Shown in pieces: positions 57,509-63,197 of a stretch of 64,000 bases of DNA. The position numbers and the translations under genes were made by a program. Source of the DNA: Acidobacteriaceae bacterium. GTDB taxonomy: Bacteria > Acidobacteriota > Terriglobia > Terriglobales > Acidobacteriaceae. Within the stretch, counting starts at the first letter, position 1, and every line of letters starts with the position of its first letter. The stretch covers positions 1 to 64,000 of the forward strand of contig JASHNW010000106.1 in NCBI GenBank assembly GCA_030041435.1, read 5' to 3'. The notes under the pieces were generated by a model. That model saw only the letters and a list, made by a program, of their open reading frames with translations. It ran no database searches and was not told the DNA's origin.

Positions 57509-59035
57509 TTATCCGAAGCTCTGGAAATCCTTCCAGAAGACGGGCCAGGGCTGGAGGGGGCTGCCGCAGACGAAGATATCCGGATGGTCGCGGCTCTCTT
57601 CATTCTCGACGCCGAAGGGATTCACGACATGGCCGGCGAGACGGCATCCTGCGAAGGTTTTGTCGACGTAGCGCTGGGAGAGACCGAGCACGATGAGCGT
57701 GGCAGGGGGCGGCAGAGAGTAGCCGCGCAGCCACGCGGAATTGGTGCCGCTGATGGGCGGCGGCAGCTGGTATGGTGGGCCGAGGATCTCGATCGCTCCC
57801 TGCTCTCCGTAATTCCCGACCAATATCCCCGCATGCTCACGCTGCTCTGGCGGCAGCGTATCCCAAATCGTCGCAACCGTGCGCACAATTTCCGGCCAGC
57901 CCGTCTCCTCGCGCAAATCGCCGTTATTGCTCAGCGCAAATCGCATGAGCGGCCCGCTCGGCGCCAGCGGAACGATAATCGCGCACGCAAACGCCCCATA
58001 CACCGCCACGCCCGCGAAGAACAGCCACTCGACGCTCCGCCGCCAACCCGTCTTGAGCGACGCGACCCACTTCTCCCCCACGACCGCTCCCATCGCCATC
58101 AGTATCGGATAGACGCCCGCCGTGTAATACCCGCGTCCCTTCCCGAAGAAAAACAGCGCCACCGGAATTAAAGAAATCCACGCCAGCACGCGGTACCGCC
58201 GGCTCAGCAGAAATCCGGCCAGTCCCGCAATCCACAGTGGGACCGTGACGACGTTCGTGCACAGGAGGAACTGAGCAAGTATGAATCCGTGCGCCCGCCC
58301 CTCGCCGACATCGCGCACATGGATGTACTTCAGGAATGCATACGAAACGAAGTGGTGATGGACCTGCCAGAGGAGGTTTGGCAGGCAGATCAGGGTGGTG
58401 AGCACCAGCGCGCTCACGAAATACCAGCTCAGGAGACAGCGGCGGGCGCGGGTGAGCAGGAATCCGCCAAGAATGCCGGCGATGTAGAACAGGATCGCGT
58501 ACTTGGTCATCACGCCGAGGCCAGCGACGGCTCCGATGGCCAGCCACCAGCGCGGATTCTCCGACTTGAGGAGGCGAATGACGCACCAGGCGATCAGCAC
58601 CCACCAGAGGAAGTCGAAGGTGGTGTACTGGAATTCTGTCCCCTGGAACAAGGGCAGCGGAGACAACGCGACGCCGACGGCCGCGGTGATCTGGGCGAGG
58701 CGTCCGCCGCCGATGTCGCGCGCCATGAGGCCGGCGATGACGATGGCGATGGATTGAGCGAGGACGGAAAAGAGGCGCAGGCCGACCATGTTGAGGCCAA
58801 AGAGGGCGAGGCTCATTCGCTCCACGAACGGGGTGAGCGGAGGATAGGCTACGAATCCCCACGCTAAATGCCGCGCATCGCTGAGGAACTGCAGCTCGTC
58901 GCGATGGAAACCGTAGCGCATGTTGGTGAGCAGGTGGAGCAGCGCCATTGCTGCCGCGATGGCGATCAGACCTGCGGTCACCGTTTGCGTCCGCATGCCG
59001 GATGGGTTGTGCGCTGCTTCGCTGACAGACGCCAT
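57509..59035 (-). CDS. GT39/ArnT-like membrane glycosyltransferase
   Basis: The 508-residue protein has at least ten membrane helices. The first periplasmic loop RYGFHRDELQFLSDARHLAW has the catalytic Asp-Glu pair of GT-C enzymes (DE near residue 50), and YPPLTPFVERMSLALFG is typical of the PMT_2/ArnT group. It should transfer a sugar from a polyprenyl-phosphate donor to a lipid or protein outside the cytoplasm. The C-terminal 100 residues are soluble (GILVGNYGEQGAIEILGPPY). The ATG at 59035 with AAAGGA upstream is preferred over 59074. Acceptor unknown. Confidence 0.82.
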   Translation of the reverse strand: MASVSEAAHNPSGMRTQTVTAGLIAIAAAMALLHLLTNMRYGFHRDELQFLSDARHLAWGFVAYPPLTPFVERMSLALFGLNMVGLRLFSVLAQSIAIVIAGLMARDIGGGRLAQITAAVGVALSPLPLFQGTEFQYTTFDFLWWVLIAWCVIRLLKSENPRWWLAIGAVAGLGVMTKYAILFYIAGILGGFLLTRARRCLLSWYFVSALVLTTLICLPNLLWQVHHHFVSYAFLKYIHVRDVGEGRAHGFILAQFLLCTNVVTVPLWIAGLAGFLLSRRYRVLAWISLIPVALFFFGKGRGYYTAGVYPILMAMGAVVGEKWVASLKTGWRRSVEWLFFAGVAVYGAFACAIIVPLAPSGPLMRFALSNNGDLREETGWPEIVRTVATIWDTLPPEQREHAGILVGNYGEQGAIEILGPPYQLPPPISGTNSAWLRGYSLPPPATLIVLGLSQRYVDKTFAGCRLAGHVVNPFGVENEESRDHPDIFVCGSPLQPWPVFWKDFQSFG

Positions 59036-59114: not shown

Positions 59115-59390
59115 CTACTTCAGATAAGCGCGCACCAGGTCGATCAGATCCTCGGCCAGCTCGGTCGAGTCGGTTTTCTCTTTTTCGGGGGTCAGCATGT
59201 GCAGGCGGATGTGATCCTCGAGGACCTCGGCCATGAGGCTGTTGATACCGCCGCGCACGTTGGCCAGCAGCATCAGCACGTCGGCGCAGTGCTCCTTTTC
59301 CGAAAGCGAGCGCTCGATGGCATCCACCTGACCGCGAATGCGCCGCACCCGGGCAATCAGCTTCTGTTGCTCCCTACCTTCGACGGGCAT
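59115..59390 (-). CDS. CsoR/RcnR/FrmR-family repressor
   Basis: The 91-residue all-helical protein belongs to the DUF156 metal/aldehyde-sensing repressors (LIARVRRIRGQVDAIERSLS, CADVLMLLANVRGGINSLMA, EVLEDHIRLHML). Ligand positions read Cys35, His60, His64, the CHH set of RcnR-type sensors. RcnR's His3 is absent (Pro2-Val3), so the inducer could be Ni/Co, another metal or formaldehyde. It should repress as a tetramer. An operator-like palindrome lies 35-55 bp upstream of its start, within a plus-strand promoter facing the Nramp-like gene, so it probably controls itself and that transporter. Confidence 0.85.
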   Translation of the reverse strand: MPVEGREQQKLIARVRRIRGQVDAIERSLSEKEHCADVLMLLANVRGGINSLMAEVLEDHIRLHMLTPEKEKTDSTELAEDLIDLVRAYLK

Positions 59391-59420
59391 GCTGTATCCC
59401 CTTCCCTACGCGTTTATTAC

Positions 59421-59450
59421 TTGACCATATCCCACCGGGGTATGGTATAT
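59421..59450 (+). promoter_or_regulatory. Promoter with CsoR-type operator
   Basis: TTGACC (59421-59426) and GTATAT (59445-59450) are 18 bp apart and face right. Overlapping them, CCATATCCC-ACC-GGGGTATGG (59425-59445) is a near-perfect palindrome resembling the ATAyCCC-n-GGGrTAT operators of CsoR/RcnR-family repressors. Binding would block the -35/-10 space. Confidence 0.6.
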
Positions 59451-60088
59451 AAATGTGAGTGGCGAACTCCAGCTTACCGAGGTTGCCGCAGGAATTCTAT
59501 GGAAACCGCAACTGCATTCGAGCCTCCGCGATGCCGGGGGATCTTCCTGCGCTGTGACGCCGCACTCCGCGATTAGCCGCTGCTGATCGCGCCGCTCGCT
59601 CCTCACGGTGCACGACATGAACCCAGAGTGAGTGAGCAGTGCCTGCCGGAAACGGCAGTTCACCCACCCTCCTGAACCATAAGTCCGGCGAATCTGTGCT
59701 TCGGGCACGGACAGTTGCTGTTCGTCCGCCTGCATGGGACGCGCCGAGGGAGGATGTCATGACATTGAATGTTATTGTTGCGGGCCGTAATTCAAGGTCC
59801 CCGATCCACGATCGCCCGTTGCGGCGCACGTTCCCCCGGAGTGGGTTGTCCTGTGTGTGGATTGAGACGGGGAATTCCGCTCAGCCACTGGCCCGCGTGT
59901 GGATCGACCACGAAATGCGTATGGCGCGGGATGGTTTTGACGATACATCCGGGGAGGACTCCGCGGAGCCTCCCCTGCGACGGCGGTCGGCACGTTGCCG
60001 TGAGCGGCGCTCGGCCGCAGGAAGCGTGGGGACGCACGCCGGGCGGCGGCGGATCGTCGGCGCCTGAATCGAAACGCGGGAAATACGT
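59451..60088 (+). other. Long hairpin-rich leader before the Nramp-like gene
   Basis: About 640 bases between the operator/promoter and the transporter contain no convincing gene. Strong stems are CTGCCG-GAAA-CGGCAG (59644-59659), CGGAC...GTCCG (59708-59728), and GGGGAGG...CCTCCCC with an inner CTCC/GGAG (59951-59975). A 25-codon frame from 59500 (METATAFEPPRC...) has a weak start signal. M-box and yybP-ykoY signatures were not found. It may be a metal-responsive leader of unknown type. Confidence 0.4.
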
Positions 60089-61417
60089 ATGAACCGGATC
60101 GATTCCACATTTGACCCCGTAATGGCGCCCCGGGCGGTAGCCAGAGAGAACGCCATCGTGGTGCGCAGGCGCTGGCAACGCAGCCTGCTCACCTTTCTGA
60201 TGGTCTTCGGGCCCGGCCTGATCGTCATGGAAGCCGACAACGACGCGGGTGCAGTCTCCACCTATATACAGGCCGGCGGGCAGTATGGTCTTCATCTGCT
60301 CTGGACGCTGATTGTTCTGCTGCCCATTTGTTACTTCGTGCAGGAAATGGTGGCCCGCCTGGGAATCGCGACCGGCAAAGGACACGCGGCGATGATCTAT
60401 GAGCGCTTCGGTCAATGGTGGGGCCGCTTCTCGCTCATCGATCTGCTGTTCGTGAATTTCCTCACCCTCATCACCGAATTCGCCGCCATCTCGCTGGCCC
60501 TGAGCGCGATGGGGGTCAGCCCGTTTATTTCTGTGCCGGCAGCGGCGCTTGGCCTCACGCTGATGGTGGTGACAGGAAGCTATCTTCGCTGGGAGCGGAT
60601 CGTCATCCTGCTCTGTCTGCTGGACCTGACCTGGTTCGGGCTGGTCTGGACTATGCATCCCGACTGGTCGGGAATGGCGCGCAGCTCCGCCATTCCCACA
60701 ATGCCCCCGGGCGGTATCACCAGCAGCCTCATCTTTCTGATCATCGCCATCGTGGGCACGACCATCGCGCCCTGGCAGCTCTTCTTCCAGCAGAGTTGCG
60801 TGGCCGAAAAGCGGCTGCGCTTCTCCGATCTGAAGTGGGCGCGTCTCGATACACTGATCGGCGCCGTCTTTACCGTTCTTGTAGCCGGCGCCATGATGCT
60901 GGTCGGCGACTCCGGGTTCCGGCACCGGATCGTCTTTGAGGACCCCGCCCAGCTGGCTCTCGCGCTCGGCCCCGTTGCCGGCAAATTCGTCCGCAACGGC
61001 GTGCTGCTGCTGATGGTGAACGCCGCCGTGCTGGGCACCACCGCCATCTCACTGGCCAGCGCATGGGCCTATGGCGAGGTGAAAGGGTGGGAGCACTCGC
61101 TGCATAAGAAACTGTGGGAAGCTCCGGGATTCTATGCGACGTATATCGCCTGTGTTGGCGCAGCGGCGGCCTTTGTTCTCATCCCGCATGTGCCGCTGCA
61201 ACTGGTCATCATCAGCGTGCAGGTCTTCGCCGGACTGATCCTGCCCTCGGCAATTATTTTTCTTCAACTTCTGCTGAACGATCGCGACCTGCTCGGGGAC
61301 CGCTGGGTGAATCGGCCGTGGAACAACATCACTAACTGGACCATCATTGTGATTCTGTTTGCCCTGTCCCTGCTGCTGGCGGCGCAGGTGATGCTTCCAA
61401 AACTATTTTCCCGATGA
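60089..61417 (+). CDS. Nramp-superfamily divalent cation transporter, NRMT-like
   Basis: The 442-residue protein has about eleven membrane helices. The first helix reads FGPGLIVMEADNDAGAVSTY where classical Nramp/MntH has DPGN. Helix 6 reads VGTTIAPWQLFFQQSCVAEK where MntH has the MPHN metal-binding Met. Loss of the Met sulfur ligand and the extra Asp point to hard-metal transport. This agrees with NRAMP-related magnesium transporters (NRMTs), though Mg is inference. It starts at ATG 60089 after a long structured leader and is followed 13 nt later by a tiny membrane protein. Likely controlled by the CsoR-type repressor. Confidence 0.82.
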   Translation: MNRIDSTFDPVMAPRAVARENAIVVRRRWQRSLLTFLMVFGPGLIVMEADNDAGAVSTYIQAGGQYGLHLLWTLIVLLPICYFVQEMVARLGIATGKGHAAMIYERFGQWWGRFSLIDLLFVNFLTLITEFAAISLALSAMGVSPFISVPAAALGLTLMVVTGSYLRWERIVILLCLLDLTWFGLVWTMHPDWSGMARSSAIPTMPPGGITSSLIFLIIAIVGTTIAPWQLFFQQSCVAEKRLRFSDLKWARLDTLIGAVFTVLVAGAMMLVGDSGFRHRIVFEDPAQLALALGPVAGKFVRNGVLLLMVNAAVLGTTAISLASAWAYGEVKGWEHSLHKKLWEAPGFYATYIACVGAAAAFVLIPHVPLQLVIISVQVFAGLILPSAIIFLQLLLNDRDLLGDRWVNRPWNNITNWTIIVILFALSLLLAAQVMLPKLFSR

Positions 61418-61430
61418 CGGGGGGTGACGT

Positions 61431-61655
61431 ATGGCAACCCTGCAGAATTCCTATCAGCCGGAGTACTTCAGCGTCGTGCATCCTCTCGACGATGTGCCGG
61501 AACCCAAGTGTTCGAGCGAAGGTCTGGGACACATCGCCATGACGCCTGCCGTGCGTATTTCACTGATGGTGCTGCGCGGCTACCTGATTGCAATGTCGCT
61601 GATGCTCGGCTACCACGTGCTCGATCTGGCCGGCGCATTTCACGGATTGAAATAA
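61431..61655 (+). CDS. Small single-pass membrane protein next to the Nramp-like transporter
   Basis: The 74-residue protein has a polar N-terminal half (MATLQNSYQPEYFSVVHPLD, with PEPKCSSEGLGH) and one hydrophobic helix (ISLMVLRGYLIAMSLMLGYH VLDLAG at about 43-68). It follows the transporter stop by 13 nt with a GGGGGGT-rich ribosome-binding stretch, so it is surely cotranslated or cotranscribed. No family is recognised. Small proteins with this placement can be subunits or regulators of transporters; here that is inference. Confidence 0.65.
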   Translation: MATLQNSYQPEYFSVVHPLDDVPEPKCSSEGLGHIAMTPAVRISLMVLRGYLIAMSLMLGYHVLDLAGAFHGLK

Positions 61656-61709
61656 AGGCACAGTAAGCTGTACAGAAACCCGACCGCGGTGGCGGTGCCG
61701 TGAGGTTCT

Positions 61710-63197
61710 TTGCGTAGGTTGCTCATCATATTCGTTTCGCTGTTACCGGCCGTGGCGGCTGCACAATCCGCCGCTTTGCCTGACGCGCCCACTCCGGCGC
61801 TACAGGCCGGAGTCGCGGCCGCCGTGCCCCAGCAGACGGCCTGGCTTCAGGAGCCCGCTTCGCAATCAGATCCGCAAGCCGCCCCGCCGTCTGCCCGGCC
61901 GGCCGCTGATCCCGAGCTCACCATGTTCCCCCACAGCCAGACGGCGCGCTGGTGGATTTCCGGGCAGGCGAACGTGATTTTGCAGTGGCATCCGAAGTTT
62001 TACGCAAAATACTCAGGACCCAACAGCCTGACGGCGTGGGCGCAGAGCGCGACCACGCACGTGATGACGCTCTATACCGGGTACGAACTCACGCCCACGA
62101 CCGAGGTGTTTGCCGACCTCGAGGATGCGACGGGCAGCGGCGTCGGAAACGCAAATGGTCTAGCCGGCTACTCGAACATGGACTCCGTCCGGTTGGCTAA
62201 TGGCGTGGCGCTTTCCAAGGGGCCCTATATTGCCCGGTTTATGCTGCGGCAAATCGTTCCTCTAACCCAGGAGCGTACGGAGGCGGACCGCGACGAACTG
62301 CATCTGTCGACGTCGCTGCCCGTGCGCCGCCTCGAATTCCGCGTTGGAAAGTTCGACCTGGTCGATTTCTTCGATCAGAACACCTGGGGCTCGGACAGCC
62401 ATCTGCAATTCCTGAATTGGACGGTGGACTCCAATGGAGCCTACGACTACGCCGCCGACACGCGCGGGTATACCGATGGCGCTCTCATCGAATACGACGA
62501 TCACTGGTGGACGGTGCGCTTTGCCGAAGCGCTGATGCCAAAAACCGCGAATGGGCAATTTCTGGATGCCGATGTCGCGCGGGCCCGCGGAGAGAATCTG
62601 GAACTGGAAGCGCGCGGCAAGCGCATCCTGCATCGGGATGGGACCGTGCGCCTGCTGAGCTATCTCAATCACGCCGACATGGGCAACTACGAAAACGCGA
62701 TTGCCGGCTTTCTGGAGCATAATAGCCCGATGCCGGACATCATTGCGACGCGGCGGCAGGGACGCCACAAGTACGGTTTCGGCCTCAACTTCGAGCAGGA
62801 AATCACGCCGCAGGTGGGGGTGTTCGGCCGTCTGGGCTGGAGCGACGGCCGCAATGAATCCTTCGCCTATACCGAAGACGATCGCACCGTGGAAGCGGGC
62901 GCCCTTGCGCCAGGCAACTCCTGGCATCGCAACAACGATCGTGCCGGTGTAGCCTTCGTTGCCAACGGAATTGTCGCCGCGCATCAGGAATATCTTGCCC
63001 TCGGCGGGCTGGGATTCATCCTCGGAGACCGCGGCCTCACCTATGGGCCCGAAAAGATCGCCGAGAGCTTCTACACCGCGCACCTCTGGCGCGGCCTGTT
63101 TGGCTCTTTCGACTTTCAGCACGTTAACGATCCCGGCTATAACCAGGTGCGCGGCCCCGTATCGGTCTTCTCCGTGCGCGGTCACGTCGACTTCTGA
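61710..63197 (+). CDS. Carbohydrate-selective porin, OprB-like
   Basis: The 495-residue protein starts with TTG at 61710, giving a signal peptide (LLIIFVSLLPAVAAAQ). After a Pro/Ala-rich spacer the barrel begins with WWISGQANVILQWHPKFYA. It shows FADLEDATGSGVGNANGLAG, EFRVGKFDLVDFFDQNTWGS and YSFGLNFEQE-like YGFGLNFEQEITPQVGVFGR, and ends SVFSVRGHVDF with the terminal Phe of outer-membrane barrels. This matches OprB-type porins. It follows the Nramp-like/small-protein pair by 54 nt, so outer-membrane entry for the same cation is an alternative to sugar uptake. Confidence 0.72.
   Translation: MRRLLIIFVSLLPAVAAAQSAALPDAPTPALQAGVAAAVPQQTAWLQEPASQSDPQAAPPSARPAADPELTMFPHSQTARWWISGQANVILQWHPKFYAKYSGPNSLTAWAQSATTHVMTLYTGYELTPTTEVFADLEDATGSGVGNANGLAGYSNMDSVRLANGVALSKGPYIARFMLRQIVPLTQERTEADRDELHLSTSLPVRRLEFRVGKFDLVDFFDQNTWGSDSHLQFLNWTVDSNGAYDYAADTRGYTDGALIEYDDHWWTVRFAEALMPKTANGQFLDADVARARGENLELEARGKRILHRDGTVRLLSYLNHADMGNYENAIAGFLEHNSPMPDIIATRRQGRHKYGFGLNFEQEITPQVGVFGRLGWSDGRNESFAYTEDDRTVEAGALAPGNSWHRNNDRAGVAFVANGIVAAHQEYLALGGLGFILGDRGLTYGPEKIAESFYTAHLWRGLFGSFDFQHVNDPGYNQVRGPVSVFSVRGHVDF

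Follow-up and report, generated by a model that had tools for sequence, protein, structure and literature searches.

Candidate two-layer control of an NRMT-like transporter operon with a putative detached subunit in Acidobacteriaceae

How might a bacterial cation transporter be controlled at both the DNA and the RNA level, and does it work with a small protein of its own? These questions are raised by a locus in a 64,000-nucleotide stretch of DNA (the window) on a contig of a 5.77-Mb genome; its nearest named relatives at the locus are Acidobacteriaceae (Granulicella, Terriglobus, Edaphobacter). From left to right, the window carries a repressor gene on the minus strand, a divergent promoter-operator, a leader, an SLC11/NRAMP transporter, a 74-aa ORF and an OprB porin (Table 1). 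An earlier note on this DNA had described most of these parts, and they are present, but it had overlooked the OprB gene, two ORFs in the leader and an anti-Shine-Dalgarno (anti-SD) sequence. The region 59115-63197 is an acidobacterial metal-homeostasis locus, in which a small leader ORF (smORF), the transporter, the 74-aa gene and the porin constitute a putative operon. The porin gene starts 54 nt past the 74-aa ORF, the same succession is seen in many relatives, and it is likely the last gene of the operon. Terriglobus roseus DSM 18391, an environmental laboratory strain, carries this locus too (L069). On the left, the repressor is flanked by a PMT_2-type membrane protein (57509-59035) that seems unrelated to the metal locus.

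Table 1. Features of the locus, with positions in the window
Positions	Strand	Feature	Evidence
59115-59390	-	CsoR/DUF156-family repressor, FrmR/RcnR-like, x-C35-H60-H64	PF02583, E 1.2e-19
59421-59451	+	Promoter with operator palindrome ACCATATCCCACCGGGGTATGGT (59424-59446) between -35 and -10	Comparative alignment
59499-59576	+	uORF1, METATAFEPPRCRGIFLRCDAALRD and stop, conserved E-P-P leader peptide, 25 codons	26 distinct homologues
59568-59591	+	Hairpin P1 (CGCGAT/ATCGCG), uORF1 stop codon in loop	7/7 pairs with two-sided changes, alignment A3
59593-59634	+	Hairpin P2 (CGCTCGCTC 59593-59601 with GAGTGAGTG 59626-59634), conserved loop	RNA model R1
59667-59672	+	Anti-Shine-Dalgarno CCCTCC	Conserved as C(A)CCC(C)TCC; predicted to pair with SD 59748-59753
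59748-59753	+	Shine-Dalgarno (SD) GGGAGG of smORF	Unpaired probability 0.03 vs 0.26 in shuffles (window leader)
59759-60067	+	smORF, 102 aa, CVWIETGNSAQPLARVW core	SD-preceded relatives, alignment A1, family search
60089-61417	+	NRMT-like SLC11/NRAMP transporter, 442 aa, TM1 D-A-G-A, TM6 T-T-I-A	PF01566, E 2.5e-68
61431-61655	+	74-aa single-pass protein, putative detached C-terminal helix of transporter family	Conservation, profile comparison
61710-63197	+	OprB-family porin	PF04966, E 3.5e-24, 86.3 bits vs cut-off 22.9

Repressors of the CsoR family usually leave their DNA under metal excess. The window protein scores 70.9 bits against PF02583 (cut-off 22.8) and has the Cys35-containing ligand set, which places it in the CsoR/DUF156 family. 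Cys35, His60 and His64, for which it had been called a CHH-type repressor, are all present and are invariant in 34 of 34 repressors from related loci. The best solved relative is FrmR (5lbm, E 9.5e-20), but the protein falls below the equivalog models of both FrmR (NCBIfam NF008464, 93.9 bits vs a cut-off of 133), from which it also departs by His64 instead of Glu64, and RcnR (NCBIfam NF011613, 59.4 bits vs a cut-off of 138). The RcnR ligand set is His3-Cys35-His60-His64; Val3 is found in the window repressor and His3 in several relatives. FrmR is a formaldehyde sensor with Glu64, and the single change E64H made the Salmonella protein responsive to zinc and cobalt in cells (PMC4528141). With its natural His64 and with FrmR as its closest solved relative, the window repressor thus resembles this engineered metal sensor. 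Fold and Cys35/His60 are shared with FrmR and RcnR, and His64 with RcnR and FrmR E64H; the sub-threshold scores, the lack of His3 in the window copy and a transporter operon as the target set it apart.

The operator has perfect 6-bp arms (ACCATA-N11-TATGGT) flanked by a TTGACC -35 (59421-59426) and a TATATA-like -10, so that a repressor bound between the two would block RNA polymerase. It is a single site in the whole genome, seen from both strands. All 46 of the distinct related leaders have it on their 5' side (36 by a strict pattern, 10 as variants visible by eye), and shuffled sequences gave none. It is also kept where the repressor gene does not adjoin. The near-perfect CsoR-like palindrome reported for this promoter is thus confirmed, and comparative footprinting strongly supports the predicted control of the operon by the repressor at the DNA level, which had been proposed along with it.

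What the operon transports is suggested by the nearest solved structure. In a phmmer comparison with solved structures the transporter is closest to EleNRMT (E 2.6e-62), canonical NRAMPs scoring 1e-17 or weaker. The NRMT consensus is DxxG-TxxA/T (PMC8806188). TxxA/T takes the place of AxxM in TM6, where GTTIAPW of the window aligns with GTTIAPW of EleNRMT; TM1 departs from DxxG, with D-A-G-A in the window vs D-A-G-G in EleNRMT and in a sister clade of longer, fused transporters. Since it combines TxxA with DxxA, the protein is NRMT-like, as had been claimed, and not a certified NRMT. It shares with the EleNRMT branch (PMC8806188) the closest structural relation by sequence, the TM6 TxxA and the absence of a soft methionine, and differs by the TM1 DxxA, a split-off C-terminal helix protein and a leader and repressor of its own. 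From this relation we infer Mg2+ transport by the window protein, and the same relation is the one support for the cation uptake that the earlier note had suggested.

The operator and leader are not confined to this transporter. When 34 leader loci were read with their surroundings, about half led to an NRAMP transporter and eight to an OprB porin without NRAMP; the remainder led to TonB-type Oar-like proteins, an MgtC-like gene, RND-type genes, an ABC permease or smORF alone. For example, locus L244 (G337:C72) has the same repressor, operator and leader, behind which come smORF, another gene of the CsoR family and the genes for an RND-type outer-membrane factor and a fusion protein. MgtC-like genes, recognised by eye and not by a profile, lie directly behind the leader or in the operon in L246, L245, L228 and L250, and CDF-like genes lie near the leader in L252, L188 and L249. 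Because they are common to such different genes, operator and leader are best described as a small regulon element rather than one transporter's private leader. The MgtC-like genes fit a Mg2+ link; the RND-type operon and the CDF-like genes do not fit Mg2+ alone. Low Mg2+ as the signal of the leader is thus a tentative proposal, somewhat less likely than not, and the signal may not be Mg2+ because RND-type efflux and TonB-type genes also lie behind this leader. The CsoR-family logic and the leader in front of an RND-type efflux operon caution against assuming simple starvation-type control of uptake.

These genes also bear on a different account, in which the locus belongs to a metal-stress regulon. 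Excess Zn, Co or Ni would derepress it, the transporter would relieve the stress by importing Mg2+ against the toxic metal or by export, and the signal read by uORF1 would be ribosome stress or cysteine supply. Such a regulon would agree with the CsoR-family logic, the leader and second repressor of the RND-type operon, the nearby CDF-like genes, and the conserved Cys codons in uORF1 and smORF. We consider it doubtful, since importers or porins (NRMT-like, OprB) make up most of the targets and the MgtC-like genes downstream in four loci point to Mg2+.

The leader itself, ~630 nt long, contains two conserved ORFs, uORF1 and smORF. It had been described as a 640-nt leader with three strong hairpins; the leader and two conserved hairpins, P1 and P2, are found, but with two ORFs inside it is not purely untranslated. 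The homologues of uORF1 retain E-P-P and, later, Leu-x-Cys or Leu-Cys. Differences in the E-P-P block number 727, 434 and 1126 at codon positions 1, 2 and 3, and single-base codon differences are synonymous in 520 cases vs 184 that are not; these counts, being pairwise among related sequences, show a coding signature and not independent events. By its sequence, uORF1 has the layout of an mgt-type leader ORF: it is short, contains acidic-proline codons and lies before a gene resembling those of Mg2+ transporters.

Behind the E-P-P block, the region was described by a covariance model, R1, which matches the window at 59546-59678 and is found in 43 of 300 family genomes, mostly once per genome. 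In the 47 distinct matches, pairing, two-sided changes and covariation were all above those of all 500 shuffles, and every slid register was worse. In P2, 90% of the cells are paired and 6 of 10 pairs show two-sided changes (alignment A3). The claim of covariation is a moderate one because this alignment was fitted to the model and the unfitted alignment, a plain MAFFT alignment, showed no significant covariation. RNAalifold on the whole leader alignment gave a weak result. The best helix that RNAalifold itself proposes joins codons of uORF1 to the 5' arm and the loop of P2, so that this helix and P2 would be mutually exclusive. The complementarity of uORF1 to P2 exceeds that of synonymous variants only weakly (mean z -0.8, 5 of 25 at 5% or less). 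In terms of the mgt-type 1:2, 2:3 and 3:4 hairpins, RNAalifold gives 1:2 and the model gives 2:3.

Folding predictions point to a hidden smORF ribosome-binding site. Across 24 leaders, the folds are more stable than those of shuffles (mean z -2.5), the SD has a mean unpaired probability of 0.07 vs 0.19 in SD-keeping dinucleotide shuffles, and the conserved anti-SD is its commonest predicted partner. A ribosome simulated at the uORF1 stop in 13 leaders raised P2 from 0.57 to 0.71 and SD:anti-SD pairing from 0.34 to 0.45; at none of the simulated positions in these leaders was the SD freed (0.12-0.14 unpaired). The parts of a switch are present, and the direction of switching is what we infer from them. 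The leader is very likely regulatory. Control at the RNA level, which had been proposed for a bare untranslated leader, is supported for a partly coding one by the recurrence of R1 in the family genomes, by covariation on the fitted alignment and by SD sequestration.

A conserved hairpin with a conserved loop, a sequestered SD and patchy reuse before different transporters could also be the marks of a metabolite- or metal-binding riboswitch, with uORF1 as a passenger and the P2 loop as part of the aptamer. This is unlikely. A search of Rfam 15 (riboswitches and other families) gave no match at the gathering threshold and chance-level scores at a permissive one, uORF1 has a coding signature and its stop codon lies in P1, and conservation within the leader is highest in the codons of uORF1, in P2 and at the SD/anti-SD. 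In the papers searched, nothing relevant was found on CsoR control of NRAMP genes or on leader RNAs of acidobacteria.

The second ORF, smORF, is preceded by GGGAGG and encodes the motif CVWxxTGNPxxPLxxVW. Many genomes have a relative of it in this position before the orthologous transporter; in others a relative stands in front of OprB porins or a DHDPS-like gene, or by itself with a terminator-like hairpin behind it. Among 46 distinct members behind an SD, single-base codon differences are synonymous in 4369 cases vs 2326 non-synonymous, and 25 members end in LCA; the window smORF is longer than most and is without this end. An artefact of a GC-rich reading frame is ruled out by the recurring SD, the core motif, the C-terminal LCA and the synonymous bias. 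In close relatives the last codons of smORF run into the start of the transporter gene (ctGTGCGCNTAG), as is classical for translational coupling. This overlap alone does not account for LCA, which is also kept before OprB, where no overlap exists. A CVWxxTGNPxxPLxCVW core with a C-terminal LCA, RCA or LAA is seen in L043, L044, L045, L182, L187, L191, L193, L196 and L197; this C-terminus may resemble an ssrA-type degron. In L190 (G171:C39), operator, leader and smORF are directly followed by the terminator-like hairpin, and since no transporter stands behind it there, smORF itself appears to be a product. In L248 and L251, smORF lacks a stop, and its frame stays open into a TonB-dependent Oar-like outer-membrane protein, which it joins ahead of the signal peptide of that protein. 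No significant Pfam, NCBIfam or PHROGs match was found for smORF.

NRAMP transporters are regarded as single-chain carriers, and the 74-aa gene, which starts 13 nt behind the transporter as had been stated, raises the question of a second chain. Its lack of conservation had been named beforehand as a refuting result; it is conserved, lying just downstream in 41 of 44 loci of named genomes with the transporter at 60% identity or more. Of the three other loci, two lie at contig ends (L083, L110) and one has a broken transporter gene (L098). In a set of 100 relatives, it is present in exactly the 10 whose transporter is at least 65% identical, the window's own genome being either additional to or one of these. 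The loci with the gene include bins assigned to Fundidesulfovibrio, Armatimonadota, Verrucomicrobiota and Acetobacteraceae. In a close relative (L064, G003:C23) there is a second 74-aa gene whose accompanying transporter match covers only residues 164-441, apparently a partial duplicate.

Searches with the 74-aa protein gave no significant Pfam, NCBIfam or PHROGs match; a clue to its nature comes from the sister transporters. These (43-48% identity; from Actinobacteria, Alicyclobacillus, Chromobacteriaceae, Chloroflexota and Mycobacterium) have no separate 74-aa copy and are ~100 aa longer. An HMM profile of the small protein matches the extreme C-terminus of the long transporters in most such loci (best E 6.8e-5). 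hhalign of the small protein with the long-form C-terminus gives E 1.7e-9 (probability 96%, 39 columns), and profile-profile comparison with the whole long form gives E 2.7e-6. What the two have in common is a helix, LRGYLVxAVxLLxVKAVQL / LRGYLIxMxLLVxYxVLxL; the small protein also has a conserved HPLDDxPExK segment, which the long transporters lack. In the tree, the short and long forms are separate clades and sisters, their join supported at only 86/54. The AlphaFold2 model of the long form (m87b52fc15b38; pLDDT 87.5, with the C-terminal helix 509-537 at 75-87) has EleNRMT as its best PDB match, over 409 alignment columns of 540 residues. Since a segment encoded separately in one clade but fused in the sister clade usually forms part of a single working unit, the 74-aa protein is, to judge from these comparisons, most probably a detached subunit of the transporter, and the undescribed small subunit of the earlier note gains support from a fusion beyond the sequence that note had seen. 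That it is instead an independent regulator, an MgtR- or MntS-like peptide, is very unlikely: small single-pass proteins beside Mg2+ transporters can regulate, e.g. MgtR (PMC6813294), but here the 74-aa helix has its homologue in the C-terminus that sister transporters carry fused.

Two-layer control together with a small subunit is well supported, and the whole account of a divalent-cation operon controlled at both DNA and RNA is held to be moderately probable. In the first layer, the FrmR/RcnR-like repressor would cover the promoter, as footprinting suggests, and a transition metal of the Zn, Co or Ni class bound at Cys35/His60/His64 would release it. In the second, the smORF ribosome-binding site would be hidden by pairing with the upstream CCCTCC. 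A ribosome on the 25-codon E-P-P peptide would alter which leader hairpins form, and abortion at the acidic-proline motif, as on the Salmonella Mg2+-transporter leader ORFs, would decide smORF output, to which the transporter would be translationally coupled. The 74-aa protein would supply the C-terminal membrane helix that is fused in the sister transporters and be part of the transporter complex. OprB would provide outer-membrane passage, with porin, transporter and subunit acting jointly.

The nearest described logic is that of Salmonella mgtQ (PMC8092293), a short ORF with acidic codons; together with alternative hairpins (1:2, 2:3 and 3:4) it controls a hidden ribosome-binding site of mgtB. 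It is the closest functional parallel of the leader. The mgtB-containing operon also encodes the small membrane peptide MgtR (PMC6813294). The likeness to the mgtCBR system with its mgtM, mgtP and mgtQ ORFs and MgtR (PMC3641672, PMC8092293) includes: i) acidic or proline short ORFs and, as predicted for the window leader, alternative hairpins and a hidden ribosome-binding site; ii) a Mg2+ transporter, putative in the window, and a small membrane protein; and iii) MgtC-like genes, here in relatives of the window locus. Unlike mgtCBR, the locus has CsoR-type and not PhoP control, a second and longer family of leader ORFs (smORF), and an NRAMP fold in place of a P-type ATPase. No relation to the Salmonella system at the sequence level was found.

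The leader would be a counterpart of the mgt leader ORFs of enterobacteria that evolved independently of them, and it marks a small-protein family that is unnamed in Pfam, NCBIfam and PHROGs. To our knowledge, very little of the RNA regulation in Acidobacteria has been characterised, and the leader together with its small-protein family may merit a separate class. The natural split of the transporter, with a conserved partner, makes the role of the C-terminal helix in NRAMP directly testable. The chances appear evenly balanced that the locus represents both a two-subunit branch of SLC11 with a separate C-terminal helix and a new Acidobacteriaceae class of leader RNA, with a CsoR-type operator, an E-P-P peptide and a cysteine/tryptophan smORF family, that would steer unrelated metal and envelope systems.
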